Positions 2,353 through 62,203 of a stretch of DNA of 64,000 nucleotides are shown in pieces (within the stretch, counting starts at the first letter, position 1; each line of letters opens with the position of its first letter). Below the pieces are notes generated by a model. That model ran no database searches. It was not told where the DNA came from and saw nothing but the letters and a program-made list of their open reading frames with translations. Origin of the DNA: Henricia sp. BOLD:AAB3569 (taxonomy: Eukaryota; Echinodermata; Asteroidea; Spinulosida; Echinasteridae); NCBI GenBank assembly GCA_037783545.1, contig JBBELK010001007.1, positions 124,001 through 188,000 of the forward strand. Reading direction: 5' to 3'. The translations under genes were made by a program, and so were the position numbers.

Positions 2353-2411
2353 ATGCGATTTGTCCTGATTTTTGCGATAATTTTGTGGACTTCAGTCGAC
2401 TCGACTGTGAG
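2353..2411 (+). CDS. Gene 1 exon 1: signal peptide
   Basis: The exon starts MRFVLIFAIILW and continues with small and polar residues, a textbook signal peptide: basic n-region, hydrophobic core, then TSVDS near the likely cleavage site. It ends in phase 2 at AG before GTAGGT. The exon is present in all four units with only core substitutions (FLIF in gene 2, VLFC in gene 3). The upstream region is conserved as well, which argues that this is the true first coding exon and not an internal one. Confidence 0.65.
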
Positions 2412-5400
2412 GTAGGTTTTAGATAAACATGTTCATGATGTTTAAGTTTTTGTAACTTTGTTAGGCCTAGGCTAAGCTAAGTTAAGTAGGCCCATTTAAG
2501 ACTATAAGCTAGGCTAACATTAGACAAATCTCTTTCCTAACTTTATACCCTCAACTTTAGTTATAGTGTTGCACTTCACACTAAAACTAGCCTAGGCCAG
2601 GTTTATGCAGCTTTCTTTCTTTCTTTCTCTTTTGTTAACAAGATAAAAGAGTTCCCGGATGTCCGGAGGGCTAGGCTAGTGGGTATATGCCTATACTAAA
2701 AGGTTCGAGCTGGCATGTGCAAACCACGTTTGTTTGTAAACAATAATGATTTCTGTCCTGATTTTTGTTCCTAGTTCACAGACCCTGAGCACCATCTCGG
2801 GTCCCTTCCAGGGCAATCATGCCATCTCTGCCCTGACTAGTGATGACTGCCTTTCAACTGTTGATTGGCATGAGATCATCCTCATCACTGCAGTCCCGAT
2901 AGCTGGTGGCTTTGGACTGCTGCTGCTCGCTGCCTTTCTCAAAGATTTCAGACAGGCTTGCAAGGTAGGCCAATTAACAAGTCAACAAGTCTGTAAACTT
3001 ACTAGCATTAAACTTTTAAAGTGTCTGGTGTGTTCAGATCTGATCACATTTCTGAGGCGCCCATTTTTGCCATGGGTGTTCAGATTTTGTACCATATCAT
3101 TTGTCATATTTTTCTCATTACCAATCTGAAAATTTGTGCTCTTCGCCTCTTAATCTGTATATTTTTAAGGATATTGTCAAAAAGTACTGATCTTTTGTAA
3201 ACTAATTTAAATCCATTCCATAAACAGTGCATGTTTGCTTCCACACCAAATTGGAGATTGCAAATTTCATGTTTTCTTACCAATGGCTAGTATTCATGGT
3301 ATTTTGGGGAGGTATTTTATATGATTTTTAGGTTAGAGCAAATTCCATTATCTAGCCAAATATGAACAAGCAGAGCTCCTTTTAAAGGAGTGTGTTTAGA
3401 TTCTTCTACAAAAAGGTTTAATTTTAACCTAAAAATCATATAAAATACCTTCCCAAAATACTATCCATTGGTAAGAAAACATGAAATTTGCAATCTCCAA
3501 TTTGGATGTGAAAGCAAAAATTTTGTAATTTCTGCACTGCTTTATGATACAAATAAATTAGTTTACAAAACATCTGTGTTTTATTACGATATCCTTAAAA
3601 AAGATATGGATTGAGAACGCGAAATTTAAGAATGGTATTGAGAAAAATATGACAAACGGGCTCGAAAAAAATTATGTGGACAGGCTCCTTTAAAGGCCCA
3701 GTACATGTATCATTTGCAATGACCCCAAAAAGTAATCGACGAGTCTACAGGGGAAAAGTTCTGAAAGTAAAGATTGAATTAATAGCAACTATCCAATGAA
3801 AGGTTTTCGCTCAAAATGATATAATTTTACCAGAAAATAATCCGTAAAGATGAAGTTATTTAGATCGTTTGCAAACGATTTACTTACATGTATTTTGTGG
3901 TTCGCATCTACGCGGTCCAAAATGCATGGGCGTGTGTTCCAACGCGATGCATTTTTATGGATCGCGCGCACACGCAGTATATGATGTGCGCCCACAGATA
4001 TCTATTAACAACAAGATAGGAAACGACAGTGTTATTGAATGGCACATCATCGTAACCGTCTTGGGGCGGTTCCGAACGTGTGCGTGTGCGTAACATTAAA
4101 TATTTATGTAATTTATGTTTGATCTCATGACGTCAAAATTAACATACCCGGAGAAAAAAAAATTAAAACGACCATCTTGTTTTTGACCAGTGTGGCGCAA
4201 ATTCCGGGCTTATTATGCTGAAAATATACTTTAAACTTGTAACCATGGAGCTGTAAAGGTGATGTAGTTTGAATGTTGTATCTAATTGAAGCAATGTCTT
4301 GACAGAATAGAATCTGCAACGATATTGCAAGGTTTATTTAAGACAATTTCGACCGTCGTCGCGACGGTATGGACTCGTTACCGCATACTACATAGCGGAC
4401 GGAGTCCGGGATATGAAGTTCCAAAAACATGGCACAAACTTTATAAGAAAGATTTTCAAATTGTCTACCTTGTGCTGGAAGACGATGTGCAAACAAGGTT
4501 CCGTGTGTCCTAATCTCTGGCATTGACAGGTTTAGAAATACCCTACACATCACCAAACTGCTTAATCCGGAGGAAAATGGCAAAAAAGTCACGCTAAATT
4601 GTGTAAAGAAATACCAATATACGTATACAGTTAGCAACCAAGTTCGTTCATCCTTCTAGTGTACGCGTACGCCTGCCAATACAGCGCGCACGTCGCGAAT
4701 GGGGCTTTGCGTACACTACCCCTAATCGCGTGTGCGCATCGCGCGTATCCAAACTTGACGACGCGACGCGAGTCACGCGACAGCAGCTTTCATCTGTGCG
4801 CATGCGCGAAAACCCATGTAGAAGTGCCAAAAATCATGCAAATTACGGTGCCCAAAATCATGCAAATGAGGTGGCTTAAACCACGCAAATATGGAAATAC
4901 TTATGCAAATGGTGCCCAAAAGTATGTAAATGGTGCCCAAAAGTATGTAAATGAGGATATGCTAATGAGAAGGCGCGGTTATGCTTGTACGGCCTCCGTT
5001 TCCTATCTTGTTGTTAATATATATCTGTGTGTGCGCCACAGAGTGCATGACGCAAGCCACATAGTACCCGATCAACTGAGAATGAATAATTGAAACACCC
5101 CGCCATTACAAGACCAGGAAAACGCATATGGATTTTCATGGGTTTTTTAAACTTGGTACATTTGACAAAGCTGAAATTTCTTCGGATGAGTTTTTTTATG
5201 TCTTTCTTTTGATTTATAATGGTTTTATTCGCAGGATCGCTCAAAAACATATGATATACAGGGCCTTTAAAGCCCCAATACATCATTTGCAGTTGCCCAA
5301 AATTGCAGTTGCCAAAAATTGCAGTTGCCCAAAATTTGTTATGAGTTGACCAGAAACAAATTGACTTAAAGTGTTAATTGCAGTGGTAACAAATACCACT

Positions 5401-8400
5401 TTTTTTCGTGTAAAATGGTACTTTTGTGGGAGAAATTGCCAACTGAACGTGGGTTTTGTGTTTTGTTTTAAAAGTTGTCTGCTACCTTTTATCCTTCATT
5501 TACACACAAAAATTGCATGGATTTCTGAAGTATTACTGCATCTATGTGGCTGAAACTTCAACAAGGCATTTTCTCGAAATAGGCTTTCAATTACGAGTGC
5601 AAATAACGCCATTGATACAGTTACCATTCATGTACAGTACTGTATCTTTAAGTCAAGATTCTTTGTATGTAATAGTAATGTATGATTTATCCTCCTTTTT
5701 CTTTGCTTCAAACAGAGCAATCGTTCCTGCCCTCCAGCTCCTCAAACCATCAGAGCTAAAAAGGGACGCACCTACGTCATAGACGTAGAATACGGAGGCT
5801 GTACAAAATGGGGTTCATTCCTGCGTTGGTGTGCTGTGCAGACATCATCAGCCGAAATAAAAAACCGACGTCTGGTGAGACTCCGTGGAAGTACTGGCTT
5901 CAGCAACTGGTAAGATACCGTATACGTGCATTTATGCGAGTTCAGATATAAACCCAAGTTTGACTGACGATTTCTGTCTTGTTACTAAATAATTTCCTTG
6001 GTAACATTGCAAAGCCCTGTTATTCTTCGTTACAATGATGTGTTAATTGTTATAATTAAGCAATTTAACAGGGCTTTCCGGTGATACTAAATTCAAGGAA
6101 TGATTTCATAACAAGAGAGCATTGTCAGTCAAACTCGAGTTTCCAAACGTTTTTGAGGAGTTTAAAGGGGCTATGTCACGGTTTGCGCATGCGCCAAATT
6201 ATTTCATATTTTGACATACGTGCGGGCTCAGATGAATGTAGTGCAATTTCGTTACACAACGCCATTGGTGCGTGTGCAATAGTTGTGTACATCGTGTACT
6301 TGGCATGGGCAGTGTGTTCGTTCATGAGTGTTTACAATACGCAGAATTCAGCTACATTAATTGTGCATCGTGTGCGCGCTCTTGTTCGATTTGGCATCGC
6401 GCGCGCGCGATTGCGCGACTAATGTTTTGAAAAAAAATCGTACAGCGGTGGCGGCCACTGTGTTTTTCCAAGGACAGAAGGTATGCTTTAAAATTGCTGT
6501 CAGGACCAAATAAGCATGTCAGTTTTGATGGAAAACAAGGTTAAATAAATTGCTGTATCCAACCATGTCATTCATATCATTCGATGCCGTTTCTGTCATG
6601 TGTTGTCGAGTTTTTTGATGTGATGAAAAAACTATCTTTTTAACGACGGCCGCACACACGGTGATGTCGATGTTTGGCGGCTTAAAAATACGGCAAACAG
6701 TGCGATTACAAGTAAAAAGTAATGCATCAGGACATCCTGGACGTCGACAAGTACACAACTGCCAAAATTACTAAATAATTATAAGGGATGGCAAAGATTA
6801 AATAGGATATGCGAAACCTGGCGACAAAACTTGAAAGAGGTTAGCCACTCTTTTTCAAGTTTTGCTACGCATGCGCAAACCGTGACATAGCCCCTTTAAT
6901 ATGTTTGTTTGATTATGGTACATGTATTTTGTTTTTGGTCCGTCCTCCAGGGTGTCTTTTGATCTGGTTCTTGGAAAGAAATCGGAACAGAAGACGATGA
7001 CGACCCCTCGCGCCATCGGTAAGCTGGTAGCTGTGGAGTCGAAATACCCACCAATAAGCGACAGGCTCCACCCCAGGGCATTGCCAACTTCCAACACCAG
7101 GGCCTGTCTGAGAGGACTCTTCAAAAGGGCATGTGATATGTAAGCATTTATAAGAAAATTACATTTTGCAAAAGACAAATAGTTGTATTAAACAACTAAT
7201 GGCCCATTATATCATTTGCAATAAACAAAATGTTCACTTTTCGAGTTGAGCAGAAGAAATTTACTTAAAATGTTGACAGCAATGGCAACAAACACCACAT
7301 GATATTTAAAGGTTTTCTGAAGCATTGATGCGTCTTTGTATAGCTGAAATTTCTGCAGATTTATAGTTTACCAATATTCTTTAGATATCCTATGCCCGGA
7401 ATATGTAAAAAGTGTTATCTTGCAAATGATACATTGGCCTTTAAAGCCCCAATACATAATTTGCAGTGACCCAAAATTAAAAGTTTTGATGGCAATGGTA
7501 ACCAGCACAACATAATTTATTCCCGTGTAAAATGGTACCTTTGTGGGAGAAATTGCCCCCTCTGGTTTTTAAAAAAAGTTTTTGCACCATTCATTTACAC
7601 ACAAAAACCATGCATGGATTTTTTAGGTTTTCTGAAGTACATGTATTACTGCATCTATGTTACTGAAATGTGTACAAGGCAGTTAATTAATCAACATTAT
7701 TTTAACTGTTTTTAAAATCCGTCAAAGTAATCCGTCTTTAAGTATAGGATGTACTTTACCCGAAGTCAATTAAATATACTCTGAACATTGAGATGGATAA
7801 AAACTATATGAGATGGATATAAACTATGTTTATTTTTTCTTCTTCTATTTTCAGTGAGATCAGACGTATCCATGCCAAAGACACAAAGACACAAAACCAT
7901 TACTTCACCGTCATTGGTCCAAGCAGTGGTGGCATCTCATCGACAGATCAAGGGATTATCACCACCCTGCCGCTGTTATATTCAACCACTCCGCCCAAAA
8001 CCAAAATCAGCTATGTCGCCTACTACTTCACTAATGCATCCCTGTGGACCTCGACCTTCATGCCTCAATACCAGGGAAACTTCACTGGAGTACGGCATAT
8101 CACCCTCTTGTTTACGTGTATTAGTTACACCATGGTTGCTGCCGATGCGTTATCCCAGTTTGCAGTGATGGAGAAGTCTGTCGTGCTAAGCTGGCCTAAT
8201 TATAGTCTGACCTTATGTGTGGTAATTAGAGCAGCCGTAGTTGGTGTCGTAGTCTTCGCATTCATTGGCATTGTTGAGATGATCTTCCGAGCCACACCAA
8301 CTGTATGGTCGCTATATCCACCTTGCGTACCTGTGCAACAGCAGCATGAATACATGTTTTCGAATTGCGTCCGACCGACTTGTGTGCAGTCTGTAGATGG

Positions 8401-10312
8401 ATATTTCTACGGAGGAAACTCTATTAGTGTTGAGAGTATTCCCCACGAAACGAGCAGTGCTCCAGATATTATGCAAACCCAGAGTTCCAAACAAGTGCGT
8501 GATAACACCCAGATGCACTTCAATCAACCGGCATTGTATGGTAAAGGCGACTTGAAGCCATGTGACATTTTAAGTAACACATCAGCTAAGATGAATAATG
8601 CTGTTGATGTGAAGACAAAGAACGCTGAAAGTCCCACTACCAAAATTCGTGCTGCAGGTTTGACTTGCCGCTCTCAATGGACCGTGGTCAATGGCCGCGA
8701 AATCTACAAACTTTATGCTGAAAAGTTAAACAGCAAACAGTTTACCAAATCTACATTTGACACCAAGCCTGATGCGTCTCTATCCCCCGACGTAACAATC
8801 AACCCTACTCGTGACAATACCAACAATTCCAAGAATGACATCAAGCTTGCTGTTAGTTCCAATTGCAACGTAGTTAGCTCCGGGAACAGCTCTCAGACAA
8901 GCGACGTAACCTGGATTCCTTGCTCGTCTACATCAATTGACTTCAAGAGCAGTTCCTTCATAACTGACACGGTAACATCTTATCAACCAAGGTCAACTTC
9001 AAGTGCTTCTGCTGCCAGGAGCAGTTCATCACTCTTTTCCAATGAGTCGATTGAGAAAGGAAGACCCGATGACGACCATGATGACAAGACCTTTCCGGCA
9101 ATTGAGGACTGTTTAACCCAATCTGACACCAAGCAGACGTCTCTAATCAAGACAATTTTCCATGAGCCATTACAGAGCCGACCCGAATCCACCTCTTGCA
9201 CTGCGCCTGCAACCATTCAGCCCTACTACAACAAACAAAAGATCACTATTCAGAAGCAGGCAGCAGGTGATAGCCACTGTACTGCACACAGTGAGCAGTA
9301 CAAGTTCCAAAACCGTGACCCTTCAGAAGAATTCGTATCCTACTTTGCTGTTCTCACAGAGGAGAATATCAAGACAGCTAAAGTGAAACGCACCAAGAAT
9401 TACATCAACAAGTTTTCCGACATGGGAAAGGCTATAATTGTCATCTTGCCTTACGATGATTCCAAAGCACCCCAGGATGTGTCTGACATTAACGAGATGA
9501 ATATAATATCATTTCTCGATGATATTCCACCAGTTAAGACAAATCCCGATGAAAAATCCCCGGCCGCCTGTGCTGCAGTGGAAACACGCGCTGACTACAT
9601 CATCAATATTCCCATGGATTTTGAACTGCCGAGTGTGACCATACAGACAAGCACTAGCCTCAGATCGGTCTTCTTCGGGATTAGAAATTGGTTTGCGGGA
9701 TTGCTGTCCAAACCCAGACTTGATATTGGCGATGACTACAAGTTGGAAGTGACTGAAAATGATTCTTTCATGAAAACCCCGGATGAAAACACCAGTGTGC
9801 TGTCTGTTCCACAGGAAGCTGTTGCTAACCATCACATTCAACCAGGACCAAGTGGAGCCAAAACCAAGCACACCGCCTCAAGCTGGCTTCCTAGTAATGG
9901 AAATAACAACTGCGATACTGAAGAAAAGTCCGTTCACAATCTCCAAGGCGCCGTCTTCCAAAGATCGAGCGACAGGTTCGAGTACAATTCTGTCTCTTCA
10001 TCCACCAGTTGGAGCAGCATCCAGTCAGTTCAGAATGCCTCGAAGAAACAACTTCCTCCAGTCGCAATGTTCATTCTTTTAATCTGCAACGTCCTTCTGA
10101 TTGCGTCCTGCGTGCTTGCGGTGTGGTGGTCCATATACTCCCTCCATGGCTTCTGTTGGAGCGCCTTCTGGGAGTGGGCCGCCACTGCTGTCACTGCTGT
10201 TCTCATCCAGGCTATCATCTATGATACCATCAAGGCTGCCATCATAACGTTTCTCAAGCGGTTGTCCTTCAAGGAAGAGACAAAACCAAAGCCCTACTCC
10301 ATCATTCTCTAA
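2353..10312 (+). CDS. Gene 1: five-TM polycystin-1-like protein with PLAT-like region, 5 exons, 1029 aa
   Basis: Spliced gene with exons 2353-2411, 2775-2964, 5716-5909, 6951-7139 and 7855-10312. Every junction has GT-AG borders and matching phase (2, 0, 2, 2), giving 3090 nt. Predicted order is signal peptide (about 1-18), short extracellular segment, TM1 (about 53-75), cytosolic PLAT-like region (about 100-245), TM2 (about 291-311), TM3 (329-355), a ~590-residue Ser/Thr/Asn-rich cytosolic loop, TM4 (948-971), TM5 (983-1004) and a short tail. This is the TM1-PLAT-TM2-TM3-loop-TM4-TM5 layout of polycystin-1 family proteins, without the GAIN/GPS ectodomain or the channel-like TM6-TM11. Known polycystin-1 proteins act in ciliary or sperm membrane signalling; the role of this short form is unknown. 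Family assignment rests on topology and motif resemblance, not a database search. It is the first copy of a tandem array. Confidence 0.68.
2775..2964 (+). CDS. Gene 1 exon 2: extracellular stub and TM1
   Basis: 190 nt, entered in phase 2 after CTAG and left in phase 0 at TGCAAG before GTAGGC. It encodes about 35 extracellular residues with one Cys, then a 22-residue hydrophobic segment (IILITAVPIAGGFGLLLLAA) followed by basic residues (KDFRQACK). This puts the next exons in the cytosol, as for TM1 of polycystin-1. No GPS cleavage motif is present upstream of TM1. Confidence 0.7.
3100..3655. mobile_element. Foldback element in intron 2 of gene 1
   Basis: The left half (TTTAAGGATATTG..., CACCAAATTGGAGATTGCAAA, TTACCAATGGCTAGTA) recurs in the right half as an imperfect reverse complement, e.g. 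TTTGCAATCTCCAATTTGG and ACGATATCCTTAAAA. The arms are roughly 200 bp or more around a short centre. All four genes carry it at the same place (about 17875-18430, 38020-38585, 57735-58300), so it predates the array. Confidence 0.75.
3918..5070. mobile_element. DNA-transposon relic in intron 2 of gene 1
   Basis: Gene 2 reads straight from CTACGCGG to TCAACTGAGAA at about 18680, whereas gene 1 has ~1.15 kb between these words. The insert ends carry inverted copies of ATTAACAACAAGATAGGAAACG (about 4000-4025 and 4997-5018), with longer imperfect matches outward. A minisatellite of GTGCCCAAAAGTATGTAAAT-type units lies at about 4835-4945. Genes 3 and 4 keep only the first ~25 bp of the insert, because both have the same ~1.6-kb deletion. 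Confidence 0.65.
5071..5715. repeat. Dispersed intronic repeat (AAAGCCCCAATACATCATTTGCAG family)
   Basis: Phrases of the type TTTAAAGCCCCAATACATCATTTGCAGTT, followed by CCAAAAATT and TGTAAAATGGTACCTTTGTGGGAGAAATTGCC, recur many times in the window, for example at about 3690, 7198, 7440, 11740, 18865, 20520 and 40710. They form a short interspersed repeat of unknown class. Here it occupies the 3' part of intron 2. Confidence 0.6.
5716..5909 (+). CDS. Gene 1 exon 3: start of PLAT-like region
   Basis: 194 nt after TTCAAACAG, leaving in phase 2 at AACTG before GTAAGA. It encodes a Pro-rich linker (SNRSCPPAPQ) and then alternating hydrophobic residues (GRTYVIDVEYGG, RLVRLRGSTGFSNW) that suit the first strands of a PLAT beta-sandwich. 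In polycystin-1 a PLAT domain sits at this place directly after TM1. Gene 2 differs by two in-frame 3-nt deletions, as expected for a sequence under coding constraint. Confidence 0.65.
5994..6097. mobile_element. Deleted foldback element in intron 3
   Basis: AAAGCCCTGTTATTCTTCG opens the element and AACAGGGCTTT closes it. In gene 2 the full 348-bp version (19566-19913) is present. This copy has lost most of its right arm. Genes 3 and 4 carry the same short form (about 39280-39382 and 58975-59075). Confidence 0.65.
6162..6899. mobile_element. TTAA-flanked MITE, copy 2 (gene 1 intron 3)
   Basis: Same family as the element at 1374-2109: inverted ends AGGGGCTATGTCACGG and so on, with TTAA on both sides (6162-6165, 6896-6899). 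It ends only ~50 bp before exon 4. Gene 2 has the uninterrupted site (GAGTTTAATATAATG, about 19965-19980). Genes 3 and 4 share the insertion. Confidence 0.85.
6951..7139 (+). CDS. Gene 1 exon 4: second part of PLAT-like region
   Basis: 189 nt between TCCTCCAG and ATAT before GTAAGC, phase 2 on both sides, so it can be skipped in frame. The stretch VSFDLVLGKKSEQ followed by TTPRAIGKLVAVES resembles the PLAT pattern of a strand, then TPxPLGxLxxIRV. GGTAAGC at 7018-7024 inside the exon is a donor-like word; using it would shift exon 5 out of frame. The longer exon keeps the frame open in all intact copies and is preferred. Confidence 0.65.
7140..7854. repeat. Intron 4 of gene 1, made of dispersed repeats
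   Basis: Two copies of the AAAGCCCCAATACAT / TTGCAGTGACCC repeat family lie head to tail at about 7195-7440 and 7437-7700. The intron ends with a duplicated GAGATGGATA(A/T)AAACTAT word, then a TTTTTTCTTCTTCTATTTTCAG acceptor. No gene is seen. Confidence 0.6.
7855..10312 (+). CDS. Gene 1 exon 5: TM2-TM5 and the large cytosolic loop
   Basis: 2458 nt, 818 codons plus TAA. It opens with EIRRIHAKDTKTQNHYFTV, which would complete the PLAT fold. GNFTGVRHITLLFTCISYTM then leads into TM2, like the FTRVQRL-type lead into TM2 of polycystin-1. After TM3 and the FRATP exit, the loop (about residues 356-947) is rich in Ser, Thr, Asn and acidic patches, with no recognisable domain. TM4 and TM5 end in YDTIKAAIITFLKR, close to the QPLKV...KR ending of TM5 in polycystin-1. 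The tail KEETKPKPYSIIL then stops. The reading frame after the stop is closed by several stops, so no channel half follows in this exon. Confidence 0.75.
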
Positions 10313-13150: not shown

Positions 13151-13175
13151 TTGTGTACGGGGGCGGTGGTCTAAA

Positions 13176-17135: not shown

Positions 17136-20100
17136 ATGCGATTTTTCCTGATTTTTGCGATAATTTTGTGGACTTCAGTCGACTCGACTGTGAGGTAGGT
17201 TTTAGATAAACATGTTCATGATGTTTAAGTTTTTGTAACTTTGTTAGGCCTAGGCTAAGCTAAGTTAAGTCAAGTAGGCCCATTTAAGACTAAGCTAGGC
17301 TAACATTAGACAAATCTCTTTCCTAACTTTATACCCTCAACTTTAGTTATAGTGTCACACTAAAACTAGCCTAGGCCAGGTTTATGCAGCTTTCTTTCTT
17401 TCTTTCTCTTTTGTTAACAAGATAAGAGTTCCCGGATGTCCGGAGGGCTAGGCTAGAGGGTATAGGCCTCTACTATATAAAGGTTCGAGCTGGCATGTGC
17501 AAACCACGTTTTTTGTAAAAAATAATGATTTCTTTCCTGATTTTTGTTCCTAGTTCACAGACCCTGAGCACCATCTCGGGTCCCTTCCAGGGCAATCCTG
17601 CCATCTCTGCCCTGACTAGTGATGACTGCCTTTCAACTGTTGATTGGCATGAGATCATCCTCATCACTGCAGTCCCGATAGCTGCTGGCTTTGGACTGCT
17701 GCTGCTCGCGGCCTTTCTCAAAGATCTCAGACAGGCTTGCAAGGTAGGCCAACAAGTCAACAAGTCTGTAAACTTACTAGCATTAAACTTTTAAAGTGTC
17801 TAGTGTGTCCAGATCTGATCACATTTCTGAGGCGCCCATTTTTGCCATGGGTGTTTAGATTTTGTACCATATCATTTGTCATATTTTTCTCATTACCAAT
17901 CTGAAAATTTGTGCTCTTCGCCTCTTAATCTGTATATTTTTAAGGATATTGTCAAAAAGTACTGATCTTTTGTAAACTAATTTAAATCCATGCCATAAAC
18001 AGTGCATGTTTGCTTCCACACCAAATTGGAGATTGCAAATGTCATGTTTCCTTACCAATGGCTAGTATTCATGGTATTTTGGGAGGTATTTTATATGAAT
18101 TTTAAGTTAGAGCAAATTCCATTATCTAGCCAAATCTGAAAAAGCAGAGCTCCTTTTCAAGGAGTGTGTTTAGATTCTTTTACAAAAAGGTTGAATTTTA
18201 ACCTAAAAATCATATAAAATACCTCCCCAAAATACTATCCATTGGTAAGAAAACATGAAATTTGCAATCTCCAATTTGGATGTGAAAGCAAAAATGGTGT
18301 AATTTCTGCACTGCTTGATGAAATAAATTAGTTTACAAAACATCTGTGTTTTATTACGATATCCTTAAAAAATATATGGATTGAGAACGCGAAATTTCAG
18401 ACTGGTATTGAGAAAAATATGACAAACGGGCTCGAAAAAATTATGTGGACACGCTCCTTTAAAGGCCCAGTACATGTATCATTTGCAATGACCCCAAAAA
18501 GTAATCGACGAGTTTTCAGGGGAAAAGTTCTGAAAGTAAAGATTGAATTAATAGCAACTATCCAATGAAAGGTTTTTGCTCAAAATGATATAATTTTACC
18601 AGAAAATAATCCGTAAAGATGAAATTTTTTAGATCATTTGCAAACGATTTACTTATTTTTGGTTCGCATCATATCTACGCGGTCAACTGAGAACGAATAA
18701 TTGAAACACCCCGCCAAGACCAGGAAAACGCATATGGATTTTCATGGGTTTTTTAAACGTGGTACATTTTACAATTTCTTCGGATGAGTTTTTTGATGTC
18801 TTTCTTTTGATTTATAATGGTTTTATTCGCAGGATCGCTCAAAAACATATCATACTGCAGGGCCTTTAAGGCCCTAATACATCATTTGCAGTTGCCCAAA
18901 ATTTAATTTCATGAGTTGACCAGAAACAAATAAAGTGTTAATTGCAGTGGTAACAAATACTACATTTTTTTTTCGTGTAAAATAGTACCTTTGTGGGAGA
19001 AATTGCCAACTGAAAGTGGGTTTTGTGTTTTGTTTTAAAAGTTGTCTGCTACCTTTTTTTATCCTTCATTTACACAAAAAAAAAATTCATGGATTTCTGA
19101 AGTATTACTGCATCTATGTGGCTGAAACTTTAACAAGGCATTTTCTCGACATAGGCTTTTAATTACGAGTGCTAAAAACGACATTTATACAGTTACCATT
19201 CATGTACAGTACTGTATCTTTAAGTCAAGATTCTTGGTATGTAATAGTAATGTATGATTAATCCTCCTTTTTCTTTGCTTCAAACAGAGCAATCGTTCCT
19301 GCCCTCCAGCTCCTCAAACCATCAGAGCTAAAAAGGAACGCACCTACGTCATAGACGTTGAATACGGAGGCCGGACATGGGGTTCATTCCTGCGTTGGTG
19401 TGCTGTGCAGACATCAGCCGAAATAAAAAACCGACGTCTAGTGAGACTCCGTGGAAGTACTGGCTTTAGCAACTGGTAAGATTATACTACCTTATGTGCA
19501 TTTATGCGAGTTCAGATATAAACCCAAGTTTGACTGACGATTTCTCTCTTGTTACTAAATAGTTTCCTTGAATTTGGTATCATTCCAAAGCCCTGTTATT
19601 CTTCGTTACAATGATGTGTCAATTGTTATGATTAAGCAATTTAGGGATGTTCAGCCCAGCAGAATATGAGGATGGGTGTAACAAAATGCATTGATTTTGT
19701 AATAGATTGGATTCCCCTTTTGCTTGGAGAATGCGAATGTGTATACTGTCAATACACATTTTGGCAATATCAATGCATTATTTTGTAACATTTCACTTTA
19801 CACCCACCCCCATATTCAGCTGAGCTGCACATCCCCCAATTGCCTAATCATAACAAATGACACATCATTGTAAAGAAGAATAACAGGGCTTTCCGGTGAT
19901 ACCAAATTCAAGGAAAATGATTTTATAACAAGAGAGCATTGTCAGTCAAACTCGAGTTTTGGAGGAGTTTAATATAATGTTTGTTTGATTATGGTACATG
20001 TATTTTTTTCTTTTCTGTCCTCCAGGGTGTCTTTTGATCTGGTTCTTGGAAAGAAATCAGAACAGAAGACGATGACAACCCCTCGCCCCATCGGTATGCT

Positions 20101-23100
20101 GGTAGCTGTGGAGTCGAAATACCCACCAATACAAGTAAGCGACAGGCTCCACCCCAGGGCATTGCCAACTTCCAACACCAGGGCCTGTCTGAGGGGACTC
20201 TTCAAAAGGGCATGTGATATGTAAGCATTTATAAGAAAATTACATTTTGCAAAAGACAAATAGTTGTATTAAACAACTAATGGCCCATTATATCATTTGC
20301 AATAAACAAAATGTTCACTTTTTGATTTGAGCAGAAGAAATTTACTTAAAATGTTGACAGCAATGGCAACAAACACCACATGATATTTAAAGGTTTTCTG
20401 AAGCATTGATGATGCGTCTTTGTATAGCTAAAATTTCTGCAGATTTATAGTTTACCAATATTCTTTAGATATCATATGCCCGGAATATGTAAAAAGTGTT
20501 ATCTTGCAAATGATACATTGGCCTTTAAAGCCCCAATACATAATTTGCAGTGACCCAAAATTAAAAGTTTTGATGGCAATGGTAACCAGCACAACATAAT
20601 TTATTCCCATGTAAAATGGTACCTTTGTGGGAGAAATTGCCCCCTCTGGTTTTTAAAAAAAGTTTTTGCACCATTCATTTACACACAAAAACCATGCATG
20701 GATTTTTTAGGTTTTCTGAAGTACATGTATTACTGCATCTATGTTACTGAAATGTGTACAAGGCAGTTAATCAACATTATTTTAACTGTTTTTAAAATCC
20801 GTCAAAGTAATCCATGTAATCCGTCTTTAAGTATAGGATGTCTTTACCCGAAGTCAATTAAATATACTCTGAACATTGAGATGGATAAAAACTATATGAG
20901 ATGGATATAAACTATATGTTTATTTTTTCTTCTTCTATTTTCAGTGAGATCAGACGTATCCATGCCAAGGACACAAAGACACAAGACCATTACTTCACCG
21001 TCAGTGGTCCAAGCAGTGGTGGCATCTCATCGACAGATCAAGGGATTATCACCACCCTGCCGCTGTTATATTCAACCACTCCGCCCAAAACCAAAATCAG
21101 CTACGTCGCCTACTACTTCACTAATGCATCCCTGTGGACCTCAACCTTCATGCCTCAATACCAGGGAAACTTCACTGGAGTACGGCATATCACCCTCTTG
21201 TTTACGTGTATTAGTTACACCATGGTTGCTGCCGATGCGTTATCCAAGTTTGCAGTGATGGAGAAGTCTGTCGTGCTAAGCTGGCCTAATTATAGTCTGA
21301 CCTTATGTGTGGTAATTAGAGCAGCCGTAGTTGGTGTCGTAGTCTTCGCATTCATTGACATTGTTGAGATGATCTTCCGAGCCACACCAACTGTATGGTC
21401 GCTATATCCACCTTGCGTACCTGTGCAACAGCAGCATGAATACATGTTTTCGAATTGCGTCCGACCGACTTGTGTGCAGTCTGTAGATGGATATTTCTAC
21501 GGAGGAAACTCTATTAGTGTTGAGAGTATTCCCCACGAAACGAGCAGTGCTCCAGATATTATGCAAACCCAGAGTTCCAAACAAGTGCGTGATAACACCC
21601 AGATGCACTTCAATCAACCGGCATTGTATGGTAAAGGCGACTTGAAGCCATGTGACATTTTAAGTAACACATCAGCTAAGATGAATAATGCTGTTGATGT
21701 GAAGACAAAGAACGCTGAAAGTCCCACTACCAAAATTCGTGCTGCAGGTTTGACTTGCCGCTCTCAATGGACCGTGGTCAATGGCCGCGAAATCTACAAA
21801 CTTTATGCTGAAAAGTTAAACAGCAAACAGTTTACCAAATCTACATTTGACACCAAGCCTGATGCGTCTCTATCCCCCGACGTAACAATCAACCCTACTC
21901 GTGACAATACCAACAATTCCAAGAATGACATCAAGCTTGCTGTTAGTTCCAATTGCAACGTAGTTAGCTCCGGGAACAGCTCTCAGACAAGCGACGTAAC
22001 CTGGATTCCTTGCTCGTCTACATCAATTGACTTCAAGAGCAGTTCCTTCATAACTGACACGGTAACATCTTATCAACCAAGGTCAACTTCAAGTGCTTCT
22101 GCTGCCAGGAGCAGTTCATCACTCTTTTCCAATGAGTCGATTGAGAAAGGAAGACCCGATGACGACCATGATGACAAGACCTTTCCGGCAATTGAGGACT
22201 GTTTAACCCAATCTGACACCAAGCAGACGTCTCTAATCAAGACAATTTTCCATGAGCCATTACAGAGCCGACCCGAATCCACCTCTTGCACTGCGCCTGC
22301 AACCATTCAGCCCTACTACAACAAACAAAAGATCACTATTCAGAAGCAGGCAGCAGGTGATAGCCACTGTACTGCACACAGTGAGCAGTACAAGTTCCAA
22401 AACCGTGACCCTTCAGAAGAATTCGTATCCTACTTTGCTGTTCTCACAGAGGAGAATATCAAGACAGCTAAAGTGAAACGCACCAAGAATTACATCAACA
22501 AGTTTACCGACATGGGAAAGGCTATAATTGTCATCTTGCCTTACGATGATTCCAAAGCACCCCAGGATGTGTCTGACATTAACGAGATGAATATAATATC
22601 ATTTCTCGATGATATTCCACCAGTTAAGACAAATCCCGATGAAAAATCCCCAGCCGCCTGTGCTGCAGTGGAAACACGCGCTGACTACATCATCAATATT
22701 CCCATGGATTTTGAACTGCCGAGTGTGACCATACAGACAAGCACTAGCCTCAGATCGGTCTTCTTCGGGATTAGAAATTGGTTTGCGGGATTGCTGTCCA
22801 AACCCAGACTTGATATTGGCGATGACTACAAGTTGGAAGTGACTGAAAATGATTCTTTCATGAAAACCCCGGATGAAAACACCAGTGTGCTGTCTGTTCC
22901 ACAGGAAGCTGCTGCTAACCATCACATTCAACCAGGACCATGTGGAGCCAAAACCAAGCACACCGCCTCAAGCTGGCTTCCTAGTAATGGAAATAACAAC
23001 TGCGATACTGAAGAAAAGTCCGTTCACAATCTCCAAGGCGCCGTCTTCCAAAGATCGAGCGACAGGTTCGAGTACAATTCTGTCTCTTCATCCACCAGTT

Positions 23101-42000: not shown

Positions 42001-43579
42001 CAAACAGTTTACCAAATCTACATTTGACACCAAGCCTGATGCGTCTCTATCCCCCGACGTAACAATCAACCCTACTCGTGACAATACCAACAATTCCAAG
42101 AATGACATCAAGCTTGCTGTTAGTTCCAATTGCAACGTAGTTAGCTCCGGGAACAGCTCTCAGACAAGCGACGTAACCTGGATTCCTTGCTCGTCTACAT
42201 CAATTGACTTCAAGAGCAGTTCCTTCATAACTGACACGGTAACATCTTATCAACCAAGGTCAACTTCAAGTGCTTCTGCTGCCAGGAGCAGTTCATCACT
42301 CTTTTCCAATGAGTCGATTGAGAAAGGAAGACCCGATGACGACCATGATGACAAGACCTTTCCGGCAATTGAGGACTGTTTAACCCAATCTGACACCAAG
42401 CAGACGTCTCTAATCAAGACAATTTTCCATGAGCCATTACAGAGCCGACCCGAATCCACCTCTTGCACTGCGCCTGCAACCATTCAGCCCTACTACAACA
42501 AACAAAAGATCACTATTCAGAAGCAGGCAGCAGGTGATAGCCACTGTACTGCACACAGTGAGCAGTACAAGTTCCAAAACCGTGACCCTTCAGAAGAATT
42601 CGTATCCTACTTTGCTGTTCTCACAGAGGAGAATATCAAGACAGCTAAAGTGAAACGCACCAAGAATTACATCAACAAGTTTACCGACATGGGAAAGGCT
42701 ATAATTGTCATCTTGCCTTACGATGATTCCAAAGCACCCCAGGATGTGTCTGACATTAACGAGATGAATATAATATCATTTCTCGATGATATTCCACCAG
42801 TTAAGACAAATCCCGATGAAAAATCCCCAGCCGCCTGTGCTGCAGTGGAAACACGCGCTGACTACATCATCAATATTCCCATGGATTTTGAACTGCCGAG
42901 TGTGACCATACAGACAAGCACTAGCCTCAGATCGGTCTTCTTCGGGATTAGAAATTGGTTTGCGGGATTGCTGTCCAAACCCAGACTTGATATTGGCGAT
43001 GACTACAAGTTGGAAGTGACTGAAAATGATTCTTTCATGAAAACCCCGGATGAAAACACCAGTGTGCTGTCTGTTCCACAGGAAGCTGCTGCTAACCATC
43101 ACATTCAACCAGGACCATGTGGAGCCAAAACCAAGCACACCGCCTCAAGCTGGCTTCCTAGTAATGGAAATAACAACTGCGATACTGAAGAAAAGTCCGT
43201 TCACAATCTCCAAGGCGCCGTCTTCCAAAGATCGAGCGACAGGTTCGAGTACAATTCTGTCTCTTCATCCACCAGTTGGAGCAGCATCCAGTCAGTTCAG
43301 AATGCCTCGAAGAAACAACTTACTCCAGTCGCAATGTTCATTCTTTTAATCTGCAACGTCCTTCTGATTGCGTCCTGCGTGCTTGCGGTGTGGTGGTCCA
43401 TATACTCCCTCCATGGCTTCTGTTGGAGCGCCTTCTGGGAGTGGGCCGCCACTGCTGTCACTGCTGTTCTCATCCAGGCTATCATCTATGATACCATCAA
43501 GGCTGCCATCATAACGTTTCTCAAGCGGTTGTCCTTCAAGGAAGAGACAAAACCAAAGCCCTACTCCATCATTCTCTAA
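33001..43579 (+). CDS. Gene 3: five-TM polycystin-1-like protein, 5 exons, 1029 aa
   Basis: Exons 33001-33059, 37710-37899, 38997-39190, 40222-40410 and 41122-43579; all splice sites and phases match gene 1 and give 3090 nt. Intron 1 is 4.65 kb instead of ~0.36 kb, because an LTR element (33342-37625) lies in it in antisense. The signal peptide core reads MRFVLFCAIILW. In the 5' half it shares insertions and a large intron 2 deletion with gene 4; its terminal exon matches gene 2. The coding sequence is intact, but the intronic LTR element carries its own promoter and polyadenylation potential and could disturb expression. Other remarks as for gene 1. Confidence 0.66.
33342..33640 (-). repeat. 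3' LTR of the Gag-zinc finger element
   Basis: Starts TGTAACAAGAATATTCCC and ends GGACGGCCGTTACA on the + strand. It matches the LTR at 37327-37625 along its whole length. Confidence 0.93.
33641..33656 (-). other. Polypurine tract
   Basis: On the minus strand the bases just before the 3' LTR read CTCGAAGGGGGCGG, a purine-rich primer site for plus-strand synthesis. This confirms the orientation. Confidence 0.7.
33802..37263 (-). CDS. Gag-retropepsin-zinc finger polyprotein of the LTR element, 1153 aa
   Basis: The start is taken at the ATG at 37263; the frame is open further up but runs into the primer site. Order: acidic N-terminus (1-90); 24 complete 14-residue repeats plus a partial one (TAQPYGAEQVKLLR and relatives, 91 to about 440); a retrotransposon Gag region starting MMLPDKFDGVSSWSDY (about 475-650); a CCHC knuckle CFGCHEFGHFRRNC (about 680); a retropepsin with LLDTGASVSLIS (about 739) and ILGIDF; then a charged linker and two C2HC fingers, CSHCDRRFTRLSNLRRHHRTAC (split here by class CX2CX12HX4C) at about 981 and CX3CX12HX3C after it. 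The tail is Pro/Arg rich. Gag and protease are usual in Ty3/gypsy elements. The C-terminal fingers stand where reverse transcriptase would normally begin. Confidence 0.88.
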   Translation of the reverse strand: MNSRDRGGLVSDSPRSGDMPESDEYQYGGQTDKAHSSTFVTVDELLYSFVGENPRENSGWWEDTGKMLEPEIVEGKRPVRTVRPDPANPSTAQPYGAEQVKLLRTAQPYGAEQVKLLRTAQPYGAEQVKLLRTAQPYGAEQVKLLRTAQPYGAEHDNLLRTAQPYGAEQVKLLRTAQPYGAEQVKLLRTAQPYGAEQVKLLRTAQPYGAEQVKLLRTVQPYGAEQVKLLRTVQPYGAEHDNLLRTAQPYGAEQVKLLRTAQPYGAEQVKLLRTAQPYGAEQVKLLRTAQPYGAEHDNLLRTAQPYGAEQVKLLRTVQPYGAEHDNLLRTAQPYGAEHDNLLRTAQPYGAEHQDSLRTAQLHGGRLPSENRTAQLHGGRLPSENRTARLYGGGLPSELRTAQLHGGRLPSENRTAQLYGGRLPSENRTTQPYGAPPRSGNPDADTPATQPATGSGPSPAQPPTAGPPGGGRRPMMLPDKFDGVSSWSDYLVHFESVARVNQWSESEKAMFLGAHLKGSAREALADMAPEARTEYLRILEYFEQRFGVTAQVPLHRAQLSMCTRRRDESISGLGQSIRRLVSKSYPNLPTQAREDLAVDAFRNALGDEQLQRHVFSRKATTLTEAITLATEMEAFLESQVQNRKGRQGTREVRSVVELAQPIPYRNTESTGYARRPLDRSMVECFGCHEFGHFRRNCPRRKPSQRTAGGRPPGRNQTTPNVPLGENYIAGKVVSTPVCFLLDTGASVSLISERIYDELYGPEKPNLQPLPETLRQADGSPMQVRGRATFELQIGDQVLSHACIVAKIEPDVILGIDFLSTYRCQWRWGDNTVLINGKPAALRDYEQHPSVARVQVGHKVRELQWIGVGTVYLDAAAPREEEATGTERDLLNQETRPAGEGPGDKVKTEDLATRPPPGNPEEDAEAGDREAPRHEAAPPQLRAVRNLPLVRTRKQETGGAPTAGRTTNGGERSGTRPLIRMSNAQCSHCDRRFTRLSNLRRHHRTACPALHLTMPFECPLGCGRSFYRDDVRHRHLQYCPRRPERVATVTVGDQLDVHASDDGMDGEDRERRGLGGHSEPPPRAEASRPGTALSEPPARGGNRTPPEQPPVAAAPQPDAQRASTPPPSERPPSATTPSRTESGTQTETHRGPPPPS
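35947..36993 (-). repeat. 42-bp tandem array inside gag (about 25 units)
   Basis: About 19 units of one type (encoding QPYGAEQVKLLR or HDNLLR) are followed, toward the protease, by about 5 of a second type (LHGGRLPSENR). Because 42 is a multiple of three, several other frames are also open, which makes long but meaningless frames on the + strand. Most units of the first type hold TGCGGAGCAA and TTGCTCCGCA as inverted arms around 6 nt. Confidence 0.95.
37310..37325 (-). other. Primer binding site, tRNA-Leu type
   Basis: The minus strand reads TGGCGGCAGCGGTGGG one base after the 5' LTR. It matches TGG plus the complement of the 3' end of animal tRNA-Leu (AAG type, ...CCCACCGCTGCCA) with one mismatch at the discriminator base. 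The tRNA sequence is from memory. Confidence 0.7.
37327..37625 (-). repeat. 5' LTR of the Gag-zinc finger element
   Basis: Identical copy of 33342-33640. On the minus strand it lies upstream of gag and should hold the promoter. Confidence 0.93.
38020..38585. mobile_element. Foldback element in intron 2 of gene 3
   Basis: Same inverted arms and position as 3100-3655. Just after it, at about 38855, lies the ~1.6-kb deletion shared with gene 4 (GTGTTCC joined to AAATAGGC). Confidence 0.7.
39443..40170. mobile_element. TTAA-flanked MITE, copy 3 (gene 3 intron 3)
   Basis: Element 39447-40166 between TTAA at 39443-39446 and 40167-40170. It is the same insertion as in genes 1 and 4 and is complete at both ends. 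Confidence 0.85.
41122..43579 (+). CDS. Gene 3 exon 5: TM2-TM5 and large loop
   Basis: 2458 nt, open throughout, with the gene 2 type residues DALSK, KFTDMG, AAANHH, GPCGAK and QLTPVAM. It has the ancestral-looking Gly in TM3 (FIGIVEM) and Ile in VIGPSS. See gene 1 for the anatomy. Confidence 0.75.
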
Positions 43580-52743: not shown

Positions 52744-52758
52744 ATCCTGCCGACTACG
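52744..52758 (-). other. Primer binding site, tRNA-Ser type
   Basis: The minus strand reads CGTAGTCGGCAGGAT, which complements the 3' end of animal tRNA-Ser (AGA type, ...ATCCTGCCGACTACG). It is separated from the LTR by AAG where TGG (complement of CCA) would be expected. The tRNA sequence is from memory. Confidence 0.6.
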
Positions 52759-52761
52759 CTT

Positions 52762-56999: not shown

Positions 57000-57734
57000 A
57001 TGCGATTTGTCCTGATTTTTGCGATAATTTTGTGGACTTCAGTCGACTCGACTGTGAGGTAGGTTTTAGATAAACATGTTCATGATGTTTAGGTTTTTGT
57101 AACTTTGTTAGGCCTAGGCTAAGCTAAGTTAAGTAGGCCCATTTAAGACTAAGCTAGGCTAACATTAGACAAATCTCTTTCCTAACTTTATACCCTCAAC
57201 TTTAGTTATAGTGTTGCACTTCACACTAAAACTAGCCTAGCCTAGTAGGTTTATGCAGCTTTCTTTCTTTCTTTCTCTTTTGTTTACAAGATAAGAGTTC
57301 CCGGATGTCCGGAGGGCTAGGCTAGTGGGTATATGCCTATACTAAAAGGTTCGAGCTGGCATGTGCAAACCACGTTTGTTTGTAAACAATAATGATTTCT
57401 TTCCTGATTTTTGTTTCTAGTTCACAGACCCTGAGCACCATCTCGGGTCCCTTCCAGGGCAATCATGCCATCTCTGCCCTGACTAGTGATGACTGCCTTT
57501 CAACTGTTGATTGGCATGAGATCATCCTCATCACTGCAGTCCCGATAGCTGGTGGCTTTGGACTGCTGCTGCTCGCGGCCTTTCTCAAAGATCTCAGACA
57601 GGCTTGCAAGGTAAGTCAACAAGTCTGTAGACTTACTATAGCATTAAACTTTTAAAGTGTCTAGTGTGTCCAGATCTGATCACATTTCTGAGGCGCCCAT
57701 TTTTGCCATGGGTGTTCAGATTTTGTACCATATC

Positions 57735-58300
57735 ATTTGTCATATTTTTCTCATTACCAATCTGAAAATTTGTGCTCTTCGCCTCTTAATCTGTATATTT
57801 TTAAGGATATTGTCAAAAAGTACTGATCTTTTGTAAACTAATTTAAATCCATTCCATAAACAGTGCATGTTTGCTTCCACACCAAATTGGAGATTGCAAA
57901 TTTCATGTTTTCTTACCAATGGCTAGTATTCATGGTATTTTGGGGAGGTATTTTATATGATTTTTAGGTTAGAGCAAATTCCATTATCTAGCCAAATATG
58001 AACAAGCAGAGCTCCTTTTAAAGGAGTGTGTTTAGATTCTTCTACAAAAAGGTTTAATTTTAACCTAAAAATCATATAAAATACCTTCCCAAAATACTAT
58101 CCATTGGTAAGAAAACATGAAATTTGCAATCTCCAATTTGGATGTGAAAGCAAAAATTGTGTAATTTCTGCACTGCTTTATGAAACAAAAAATTAGTTTA
58201 CAAAACATCTGTGTTTTATTACGATATCCTTAAAAAAGATATGGATTGAGAACGCGAAATTTCAGAATGGTATTGAGAAAAATATGACAAACGGGCTCGA
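57735..58300. mobile_element. Foldback element in intron 2 of gene 4
   Basis: Orthologous to the elements in the other three genes. The ~1.6-kb deletion after it has the same breakpoints as in gene 3 (GTGTTCCAAATAGGC). Confidence 0.7.
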
Positions 58301-59135
58301 AAAAAATTATGTGGACACGCTCCTTTAAAGGCCCAGTACATGTATCATTTGCAATGACCCCAAAAAGTAATCGACGAGTCTACAGGGGAAAAGTTCTGAA
58401 AGTAAAGATTGAATTAATAGCAACTATCCAATGAAAGGTTTTCGCTCAAAATGATATAATTTTACCAGAAAAAAATCCGTAAAGATGAAGTTATTTAGAT
58501 CGTTTGCAAACGATTTACTTATTTTGTGGTTCGCATCTACGCGGTCCAAAATGCATGGGCGTGTGTTCCAAATAGGCTTTCAATTACGAGTGCAAATAAC
58601 GCCATTGATACAGTTACCATTCATGTACAGTACTGTATCTTTAAGTCAAGATTCTTTGTATGTAATAGTAATGTATGATTAATCCTCCTTTTTCTTTGCT
58701 TCAAACAGAGCAATCGTTCCTGCCCTCCAGCTCCTCAAACCATCAGAGCTAAAAAGGGACGCACCTACGTCATAGACGTAGAATACGGAGGCTGTGCAAA
58801 ATGGGGTTCATTCCTGCGTTGGTGTGCTGTGCAGACATCATCAGCCGAAATAAAAAACCGACGTCTGGTGAGACTCCGTGGAAGTACTGGCTTCAGCAAC
58901 TGGTAAGATACCGTATACGTGCATTTATGCGAGTTCAGATATAAACCCAAGTTTGTTACTAAATAATTTCCTTGGTAACATTGCAAAGCCCTGTTATTCT
59001 TCGTTACAATGATGTGTTAATTGTTATAATTAAGCAATTTAACAGGGCTTTCCGGTGATACTAAATTCAAGGAATGATTTCATAACAAGAGAGCATTGTC
59101 AGTCAAACTCGAGTTTCCAAACGTTTTTGAGGAGT

Positions 59136-59514
59136 TTAAAGGGGCTATGTCACGGTTTGCGCATGCGCCAAATTATTTCATATTTTGACATACGTGCGGG
59201 CTCAGATGAATGTAGTGCAATTTCGTTACACAACGCCATTGGTGCGTGTGCTATAGTTGTGTACATCGTGTACTTGGCATGGGCAGTAGGTGTGTTCGTT
59301 CATGAGTGTTTACAATACGCAGAATTCAGCTACATTGTGCATCGTGTGCATCGATTTGGCATCGCGCGCGCGCGATTGCGCGACTAATGTTTTGAAAAAA
59401 AATCGTACAGCGGTGGCGGCCACTGTGTTTTTCCAAGGACAGAAGGTATGCTTTAAAATTGCTGTCAGGACCAAATAAGCATGTCAGTTTTGATGGAAAA
59501 CAAGGTTAAATAAA
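59136..59514. mobile_element. TTAA MITE, copy 4, truncated
   Basis: The left TTAA and inverted end are intact. The element stops at GGTTAAATAAA, where sequence of intron 4 begins (GTATAGGATGTAC). The right half was lost together with exon 4. Confidence 0.85.
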
Positions 59515-60040
59515 GTATAGGATGTACTTTACCCGAAGTCAATTAAATATACTCTGAACATTGAGATGGATAAAAACTATATGAGATGGATATAAACTAT
59601 GTTTATTTTGTCTTCTTCTATTTTCAGTGAGATCAGACGTATCCATGCCAAAGACACAAAGACACAAGACCATTACTTCACCGTCATTGGTCCAAGCAGT
59701 GGTGGCATCTCATCGACAGATCAAGGGATTATCACCACCCTGCCGCTGTTATATTCAACCACTCCGCCCAAAACCAAAATCAGCTATGTCGCCTACTACT
59801 TCACTAATGCATCCCTGTGGACCTCGACCTTTATGCCTCAATACCAGGGAAACTTCACTGGAGTACGGCATATCACCCTCTTGTTTACGTGTATTAGTTA
59901 CACCATGGTTGCTGCCGATGCGTTATCCAAGTTTGCAGTGATGGAGAAGTCTGTCGTGCTAAGCTGGCCTAATTATAGTCTGACCTTATGTGTGGTAATT
60001 AGAGCAGCCGTAGTTGGTGTCGTAGTCTTCGCATTCATTG

Positions 60041-60276
60041 GCATTGTTGAGATGATCTTCCGAGCCACACCAACTGTATGGTCGCTATATCCACCTTGCG
60101 TACCTGTGCAACAGCAGCATGAATACATGTTTTCGAATTGCGTCCGACCGACTTGTGTGCATTGTTGAGATGATCTTCCGAGCCACACCAACTGTATGGT
60201 CGCTATATCCACCTTGCGTACCTGTGCAACAGCAGCATGAATACATGTTTTCGAATTGCGTCCGACCGACTTGTGT
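60041..60276 (+). repeat. 118-bp tandem duplication in exon 5 of gene 4
   Basis: 60041-60158 is repeated exactly at 60159-60276. The junction shares only GC between its two ends. 118 is not a multiple of three, so the frame is lost. Confidence 0.95.
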
Positions 60277-62203
60277 GCAGTCTGTAGATGGATATTTCTA
60301 CGGAGGAAACTCTATTAGTGTTGAGAGTATTCCCCACGAAACGAGCAGTGCTCCAGATATTATGCAAACCCAGAGTTCCAAACAAGTGCGTGATAACACC
60401 CAGATGCACTTCAATCAACCGGCATTGTATGGTAAAGGCGACTTGAAGCCATGTGACATTTTAAGTAACACATCAGCTAAGATGAATAATGCTGTTGATG
60501 TGAAGACAAAGAACGCTGAAAGTCCCACTACCAAAATTCGTGCTGCAGGTTTGACTTGCCGCTCTCAATGGACCGTGGTCAATGGCCGCGAAATCTACAA
60601 ACTTTATGCTGAAAAGTTAAACAGCAAACAGTTTACCAAATCTACATTTGACACCAAGCCTGATGCGTCTCTATCCCCCGACGTAACAATCAACCCTACT
60701 CGTGACAATACCAACAATTCCAAGAATGACATCAAGCTTGCTGTTAGTTCCAATTGCAACGTAGTTAGCTCCGGGAACAGCTCTCAGACAAGCGACGTAA
60801 CCTGGATTCCTTGCTCGTCTACATCAATTGACTTCAAGAGCAGTTCCTTCATAACTGACACGGTAACATCTTATCAACCAAGGTCAACTTCAAGTGCTTC
60901 TGCTGCCAGGAGCAGTTCATCACTCTTTTCCAATGAGTCGATTGAGAAAGGAAGACCCGATGACGACCATGATGACAAGACCTTTCCGGCAATTGAGGAC
61001 TGTTTAACCCAATCTGACACCAAGCAGACGTCTCTAATCAAGACAATTTTCCATGAGCCATTACAGAGCCGACCCGAATCCACCTCTTGCACTGCGCCTG
61101 CAACCATTCAGCCCTACTACAACAAACAAAAGATCACTATTCAGAAGCAGGCAGCAGGTGATAGCCACTGTACTGCACACAGTGAGCAGTACAAGTTCCA
61201 AAACCGTGACCCTTCAGAAGAATTCGTATCCTACTTTGCTGTTCTCACAGAGGAGAATATCAAGACAGCTAAAGTGAAACGCACCAAGAATTACATCAAC
61301 AAGTTTTCCGACATGGGAAAGGCTATAATTGTCATCTTGCCTTACGATGATTCCAAAGCACCCCAGGATGTGTCTGACATTAACGAGATGAATATAATAT
61401 CATTTCTCGATGATATTCCACCAGTTAAGACAAATCCCGATGAAAAATCCCCGGCCGCCTGTGCTGCAGTGGAAACACGCGCTGACTACATCATCAATAT
61501 TCCCATGGATTTTGAACTGCCGAGTGTGACCATACAGACAAGCACTAGCCTCAGATCGGTCTTCTTCGGGATTAGAAATTGGTTTGCGGGATTGCTGTCC
61601 AAACCCAGACTTGATATTGGCGATGACTACAAGTTGGAAGTGACTGAAAATGATTCTTTAATGAAAACCCCGGATGAAAACACCAGTGTGCTGTCTGTTC
61701 CACAGGAAGCTGCTGCTAACCATCACATTCAACCAGGACCATGTGGAGCCAAAACCAAGCACACCGCCTCAAGCTGGCTCCCTAGTAATGGAAATAACAA
61801 CTGCGATACTGAAGAAAAGTCCGTTCACAATCTCCAAGGCGCCGTCTTCCAAAGATCGAGCGACAGGTTCGAGTACAATTCTGTCTCTTCATCCACCAGT
61901 TGGAGCAGCATCCAGTCAGTTCAGAATGCCTCGAAGAAACAACTTACTCCAGTCGCAATGTTCATTCTTTTAATCTGCAACGTCCTTCTGATTGCGTCCT
62001 GCGTGCTTGCGGTGTGGTGGTCCATATACTCCCTCCATGGCTTCTGTTGGAGCGCCTTCTGGGAGTGGGCCGCCACTGCTGTCACTGCTGTTCTCATCCA
62101 GGCTATCATCTATGATACCATCAAGGCTGCCATCATAACGTTTCTCAAGCGGTTGTCCTTCAAGGAAGAGACAAAACCAAAGCCCTACTCCATCATTCTC
62201 TAA

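Follow-up and report, generated by a model that had tools for sequence, protein, structure and literature searches.

A stretch of 64,000 nucleotides from the sea star Henricia sp. BOLD:AAB3569 (assembly GCA_037783545.1, contig JBBELK010001007.1, positions 124,001 to 188,000 of the forward strand) was analysed; this whole stretch is hereafter called the window, and positions are counted from its first nucleotide. Between positions 2353 and 62203 the window holds four copies, A to D, of a gene whose predicted product resembles the membrane-proximal half of polycystin-1, a member of the family of proteins that underlies polycystic kidney disease in humans. We call these the mini genes: they encode a signal peptide, a first transmembrane segment (TM1), a PLAT-like region, TM2-TM3, a long loop and TM4-TM5, and belong to a family that is spread widely over the genome.

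Structure of the gene copies in the window

Copy A, on the forward strand, is composed of five exons. Exon 1 (2353..2411) carries the ATG and the signal peptide (MRFVLIFAIILWTSVDS) and ends with a phase 2 donor; exon 2 (2775..2964) encodes a short outer stub and TM1 and ends in phase 0; exons 3 (5716..5909) and 4 (6951..7139) encode the first and second parts of the PLAT-like region, the latter ending in phase 2; and exon 5 (7855..10312) encodes the end of the PLAT-like region, TM2-TM3, a loop of about 600 amino acids, TM4-TM5 and the stop codon. The spliced model (2353-10312) uses GT-AG sites throughout, with intron phases 2/0/2/2, and gives a product of 1029 amino acids with hydrophobic segments at residues 3-21 (the signal), 54-72, 293-311, 333-351, 949-967 and 993-1011, the stop lying shortly past TM5. 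The five-exon gene with signal peptide, five transmembrane segments and stop that a preliminary description of this DNA had proposed was thus reproduced. Structure prediction for exon 5 alone gave a mean pLDDT (predicted local distance difference test) of 36.5, and no fold search was based on that model.

Copy B (17136..23402, forward strand; exons 17136-17194, 17554-17743, 19288-19475, 20026-20220 and 20945-23402) is intact, and copy C (33001..43579, forward strand; exons 33001-33059, 37710-37899, 38997-39190, 40222-40410 and 41122-43579) has an intact frame; its exon 1 was identified apart from the motif-based gene-model script, which had missed it. Copy D (57000..62203, forward strand) is broken: exons 1 to 3 (57000-57058, 57421-57610 and 58709-58902) and an exon 5 starting at 59628 are present, about 1.2 kilobases (kb) including exon 4 are gone, and exon 5 is frameshifted by a tandem duplication of 118 base pairs (bp) near 60041-60158. 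Block-by-block comparison of the copies in the window gives mostly 93-99% similarity. Three of the four adjacent genes described are thus intact, and the family does not stop at the window. A stray piece of exon 2 lies at 32036-32081, upstream of copy C (48 aligned columns, 89.6%).

A genome-wide family with two subfamilies

A search of the genome with the TM2-3 protein as query returned 282 candidates; the 150 that were scored were all listed as matches, and the 15 contigs bearing them are the family contigs referred to below. Among these scored candidates, members flank the window copies on both sides of the same contig and occur on 14 further contigs. A 27-base exon-2 pattern allowing up to two mismatches found 214 sites in the genome and none in the control; with 100 of the 214 sites listed, at least 52 sites without mismatch fall in a single 522-kb array (contig C95, 1,659,307-2,181,069). 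Both counts, 282 and 214, are rough, as they include redundant contigs and broken copies and may miss diverged ones: for instance, three compared pairs of stretches from contigs C898 and C1007 are 99.97-100% identical, so that these contigs look redundant.

Two subfamilies can be distinguished. Type 1 products have 1029 (copies A and B) or 960 amino acids (L032, L033), while type 2 products have 577 (L029, L030, L034), with a much shorter loop, and L031 is shorter still. Exon 5 is 41-47% identical at the amino acid level between the types (four pairs), and both keep the signal-peptide exon and the stop after TM5. Nine gene models were built beside that of copy A; copy D failed, and in the other eight exons 2-5 follow the same layout, with unbroken frames and GT-AG splice sites, exon 1 being located by the script in six of the eight and not located in L031. 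L048 and L049 also fit the five-exon design. Since motifs and AG acceptors are what the script searches for, the acceptors are partly given by construction, while donors, frames and the lengths of exons 1 and 2 are independent of its design. Two type 2 units, from C95 and C159, are 98-99% alike. The copies of the window are in tandem, as the term recent tandem array had implied, but they are part of a genome-wide family whose two subfamilies differ as described.

Relationship to polycystin-1

Canonical PKD1 exons of the same genome match human polycystin-1 at 9.7e-54. In a first profile-versus-profile test the mini genes matched canonical polycystin-1 with a probability of 74.9 over 170 columns; when TM1 and TM4-5 were added, the score was 49.4 (probability 86), with 318 columns aligned in the same order all the way from TM1 to TM5. 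The canonical profile was composed of L036, L038 and L039 from this genome and human 6a70, which contributes the PLAT-TM3 part. The reversed profile scored 18.5, the best of 60 local shuffles 26.4 and the best of 60 full shuffles 21.0. Tested separately against 50 shuffles each, TM2-3 scored 36.0 (best shuffle 17.1) and the C-terminal part of the PLAT-like region 22.2 over 15 columns (best shuffle 14.1). Homology to polycystin-1 in the order TM1, PLAT, TM2-3, TM4-5 is thus found for the module as a whole, and the profile score and the introns described below point to a free-standing TM1-TM5 half of a polycystin-1-type protein, as the preliminary description had it.

The remaining parts of a polycystin-1 protein were looked for within and around the mini genes. 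The signal peptide is joined to the short stub before TM1, with no match to GPS/GAIN (PF01825); the family contigs give no match to the REJ domain (PF02010), the mark of receptor-for-egg-jelly proteins; and both subfamilies end after TM5, with no match to the channel segments TM6-11 (PF08016, PF20519). An exon-by-exon profile search of the genome gave 26 PLAT, 22 PKD_channel, 48 GPS, 26 REJ and 19 Polycystin_dom matches, none of them on the 15 family contigs; such searches overlook diverged exons, PF01477 missing the PLAT region of the mini genes and PKD_channel missing C135/C654. With this search, whose GPS part is insensitive, the claimed lack of a GAIN/REJ ectodomain and of TM6-TM11 stands. 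The canonical REJ/PKD1 loci would number about nine, if C15/C152, C340/C370 and C135/C654 are redundant pairs. Contig C777 has three GPS matches, more than 100 kb from its PKD1 exons, and C40 a REJ match containing stops. A pattern search of viral contigs gave 10 matches but no relative.

Introns and a candidate parent gene

Splice sites were compared by eye on genomic sequence. The mini genes, L036 and L039 (about nine residues past the motif VWAR) and C135 (AAA|GTGAGT) all have a phase 0 intron after TM1. The intron between exons 4 and 5 of the mini genes is in phase 2 and interrupts what is, in an alignment made by eye, the codon of the PLAT tryptophan; in C135 a phase 2 intron falls in the PLAT-tryptophan codon (TG|G), with a weak donor, GTTGGT, chosen on frame and homology, whereas the three other canonical genes read (L036, L038 and L039) run through this position without an intron. 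Position and phase are therefore common to the mini genes and PKD1-family genes at two introns; for the phase 2 intron between exons 3 and 4 no counterpart was found in C135. C135 also encodes TM2 to TM6 within one open frame of 645 amino acids, and has REJ matches upstream, a GPS-like tail before TM1 (recognised by eye) and Polycystin_dom downstream. A REJ/PKD1 gene like C135/C654 is the likely parent of the mini genes.

Coding constraint and selection

In seven pairs of members, all 26 exon indels are divisible by three, compared with 16 of 53 in introns (those aligning at more than 80%); these pairs, like those used for dN/dS (the ratio of nonsynonymous to synonymous divergence), are not independent, and their members were picked for open frames. 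For exon 5, dN/dS is 0.24-0.27 in four pairs between subfamilies (dS 1.9-2.3, near saturation), 0.33, 0.53 and 0.60 for copy A against L048, L032 and L049, respectively, and 0.48 and 0.35 in two type 2 pairs. By hand count, 131 of the 150 scored exon-5 matches are open over 326 amino acids or more and free of inner stops, and 19 have an inner stop or a shorter frame. The mini genes thus look coding, and the representatives compared appear to be under purifying selection.

Divergence between the subfamilies is very uneven along the gene: in four pairs dS is 0.065-0.136 in exon 2, 0.33-0.63 in exon 3, 0.72-0.93 in exon 4 and 1.9-2.3 in exon 5, and between copy A and L030 a block 92% alike begins two bases 5' of exon 2 and runs on for about 49 bases of the intron. 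Exon 2 has likely been homogenised between the subfamilies via gene conversion or exon transfer.

Mobile elements and side observations

Exons 1 and 2 of copy C are set apart by a long terminal repeat (LTR) retroelement of 4286 bp in intron 1 (33342-37627, reverse strand), with 301-bp LTRs that are 100% identical and a long open frame on the reverse strand; the corresponding place in copies A, B and D is without the element. A tandem repeat with a 42-bp period lies within it at 35969-37108. A second LTR element (47849-53329) has 338-bp LTRs, also 100% identical, and a reverse-strand frame at 50405-51427 with Pfam matches to TDP-43_N (1.9e-9) and PNMA gag (7.4e-8). No reverse transcriptase family is found among the Pfam matches for the frames scanned. 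Helitron_like_N fragments at 30068-30565 (2.1e-25) and 54322-54819 (1.5e-27) are located in duplicated DNA between the genes.

Elsewhere in the assembly, COX1 occurs three times on contig C955 (L052-L054) with a spacing of 16,221 bp, and once on C2104; the repetition on C955 is probably concatenated mitochondrial DNA, an assembly artefact. COX1 makes sense when AAA is read as Asn, ATA as Ile and AGR as Ser, the echinoderm mitochondrial code, and upstream of it there are tRNAs and a putative ND1 frame on the opposite strand, a gene order that fits a sea star.

Origin and possible function of the family

The explanation that we prefer, with a probability of about 0.5, is that the mini genes belong to the polycystin-1/REJ family in truncated form and were amplified and selected as an accessory membrane module of polycystin/REJ complexes. 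Sequence, profile comparison and introns support the truncation, in which the ectodomain and the channel were lost and the signal peptide came to be joined straight to TM1, the PLAT-derived cytosolic region and TM2-TM5. The parent would have been a REJ/PKD1 gene of the C135/C654 kind, in which an intron interrupts the PLAT-tryptophan codon and a single exon spans TM2-TM6, and a stop after TM5 may have ended the truncated protein. The TM1-5 module was amplified to very many genes and, as seen for representatives, kept by purifying selection. From the topology, the stub of about 35 residues and the two short loops of the TM2-3 and TM4-5 pairs would lie outside, and the long loop and the PLAT-like region in the cytosol. 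As most of the non-membrane sequence would be cytosolic, the protein is unlikely to be a receptor for a ligand; our best guess is an accessory subunit or a competing one, which may dock at the TM1-5 site of full-length REJ/PKD1 proteins and, at high gene dosage, tune how polycystin channels are assembled, trafficked or gated. The decoy or regulatory subunit of the preliminary description is a putative role. Sperm as the site of action is a guess by analogy with the known role of some REJ proteins. We consider it doubtful, and put it forward tentatively, that the TM1-5 module is an autonomous protein able to fold, traffic and influence full-length REJ/polycystin channels in trans, which one echinoderm lineage amplified to very many genes as a dosage- or conflict-driven regulator.

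Several results weigh against the truncated and selected module. Profiles of the four mini-gene members tested match no Pfam family at E<=10, PLAT PF01477 included, and a search of PDB with the mini-gene profile gave no polycystin-1 match. The PLAT region alone scores 21.4 over 18 columns, marginally above the best of 50 shuffles (18.4), so that the name PLAT-like, for which a PLAT/PKD profile search had been proposed, finds weak agreement in the shuffle comparison and none in Pfam. TM1 alone is equally marginal (15.4, best of 50 shuffles 15.3). TM4-5 alone scores 14.9, equalled in 6 of 50 shuffles and, with more sequences, in 13 of 200, and is therefore assigned by position and gapless visual alignment; the canonical TM4-5 of the same genome barely matches human polycystin-1 (E 0.35 for L039, no match for L036), which suggests that this stretch evolves fast. 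As to the parent, the C135 exon gives a weak profile match (17.8, probability 1.3), and identity to C135 and L036 is 17% and 19% for type 1 and 13% and 17% for type 2; since the sequence of C135 is no closer than that of L036, the claim of parentage depends on where the intron falls in a by-eye alignment. Among canonical REJ/PKD1 loci, the GPS search matched only C340/C370 and missed C135. Concerning selection, besides the choice of pairs mentioned above, exon 5 of copies A and C gives dN 0.003 and dS 0.002, the pairs A-B and A-C being too close to judge, and the short exons 2-4, with few changes, often have dN equal to or above dS.

Among the alternatives, the arrays could have been spread by recombination or mobile elements without any needed protein, most copies being unexpressed or decaying. 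The close likeness of the window copies and of the C95 and C159 type 2 units, the Helitron_like_N fragments inside duplicated DNA at 30068 and 54322, the broken copy D and the 19 damaged exon-5 matches would all fit such a process; we consider it unlikely, as exon indels are in frame without exception, dN is well under dS between subfamilies, and splice sites and the stop after TM5 are kept despite an exon 5 dS of 1.9-2.3. Somewhat less likely still is a gametic or intragenomic-conflict family, in which truncated REJ-type modules act on full-length REJ/polycystin proteins and copy number wins, through sperm competition or meiotic drive. The very high copy number of the 522-kb array and the membership of sea urchin sperm REJ receptors in the parent family (PMC1934368) are in its favour, but exon 5 pairs divergent enough to judge carry no diversifying signal.

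A further alternative, raised in the preliminary description, is that the mini genes encode one half of a split receptor pairing with a separate TM6-11 protein, the end of the module being just where the would-be channel module starts. PKD_channel or Polycystin_dom matches occur on 12 contigs, and all but C156 also have REJ or PLAT matches; C156 has both channel families and resembles an ordinary PKD2. As C156 alone carries channel domains by themselves, and channel genes show no expansion to match that of the mini genes, the split receptor is unsupported; these exon-by-exon searches show no channel-only partner family, and we reject this improbable candidate. Least probable is an unrelated five-TM family resembling polycystin-1 by chance, for which the lack of Pfam and PDB recognition and a TM4-5 score within shuffles could be cited, against a whole-module score far over shuffles and reversal and two intron positions in common with PKD1 genes.

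Whatever their role, the mini genes strikingly combine gene amplification with homogenisation exon by exon. Whether the N-terminal membrane half of polycystin-1 functions independently matters for a gene family linked to human disease, and a natural, selected, free-standing version of TM1-5, if this is what the mini genes are, would offer a convenient reagent for work on that half.

Comparison with known systems

A free-standing five-TM PKD1 family is not described in the literature searched, at the level of titles and abstract openings. The preliminary description had presented the known members of the polycystin-1 family as keeping 11 TMs; this does not apply to all relatives in the sea urchin, where SpREJ10 has none, SpREJ1, SpREJ8 and SpREJ9 have one, SpREJ2 two and SpREJ7 six (PMC1934368). 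The mini genes are like the SpREJ family in that echinoderm PKD1 relatives vary in TM number (0, 1, 2, 6, 11), but all 10 SpREJ genes are single copy and have a whole or partial REJ domain, the defining mark of that family, which the mini genes are without; in the part of that paper drawn on here, no SpREJ is described as a signal peptide with TM1-5 only (PMC1934368). Human polycystin-1 (6a70) has the same order of the TM1-5 module, and differs in having 11 TMs and a large ectodomain (PMC1934368); its TM1-5 half is not known as a separate gene.

The closest comparison is with the canonical REJ/PKD1 genes found in this genome (L036 on C777, L038 on C340, L039 on C15, and C135/C654). Unlike the family contigs, theirs combine PLAT and TM exons with matches to REJ and to channel or Polycystin_dom, and their PLAT regions are not, as in the mini genes, too degenerate for Pfam. 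Where read, they have the same order of TM1, PLAT, TM2-3, loop and TM4-5, and L036, L039 and C135 share the phase 0 intron after TM1; C135 is further like the mini genes in its PLAT-tryptophan intron and in the single exon from TM2 onward.

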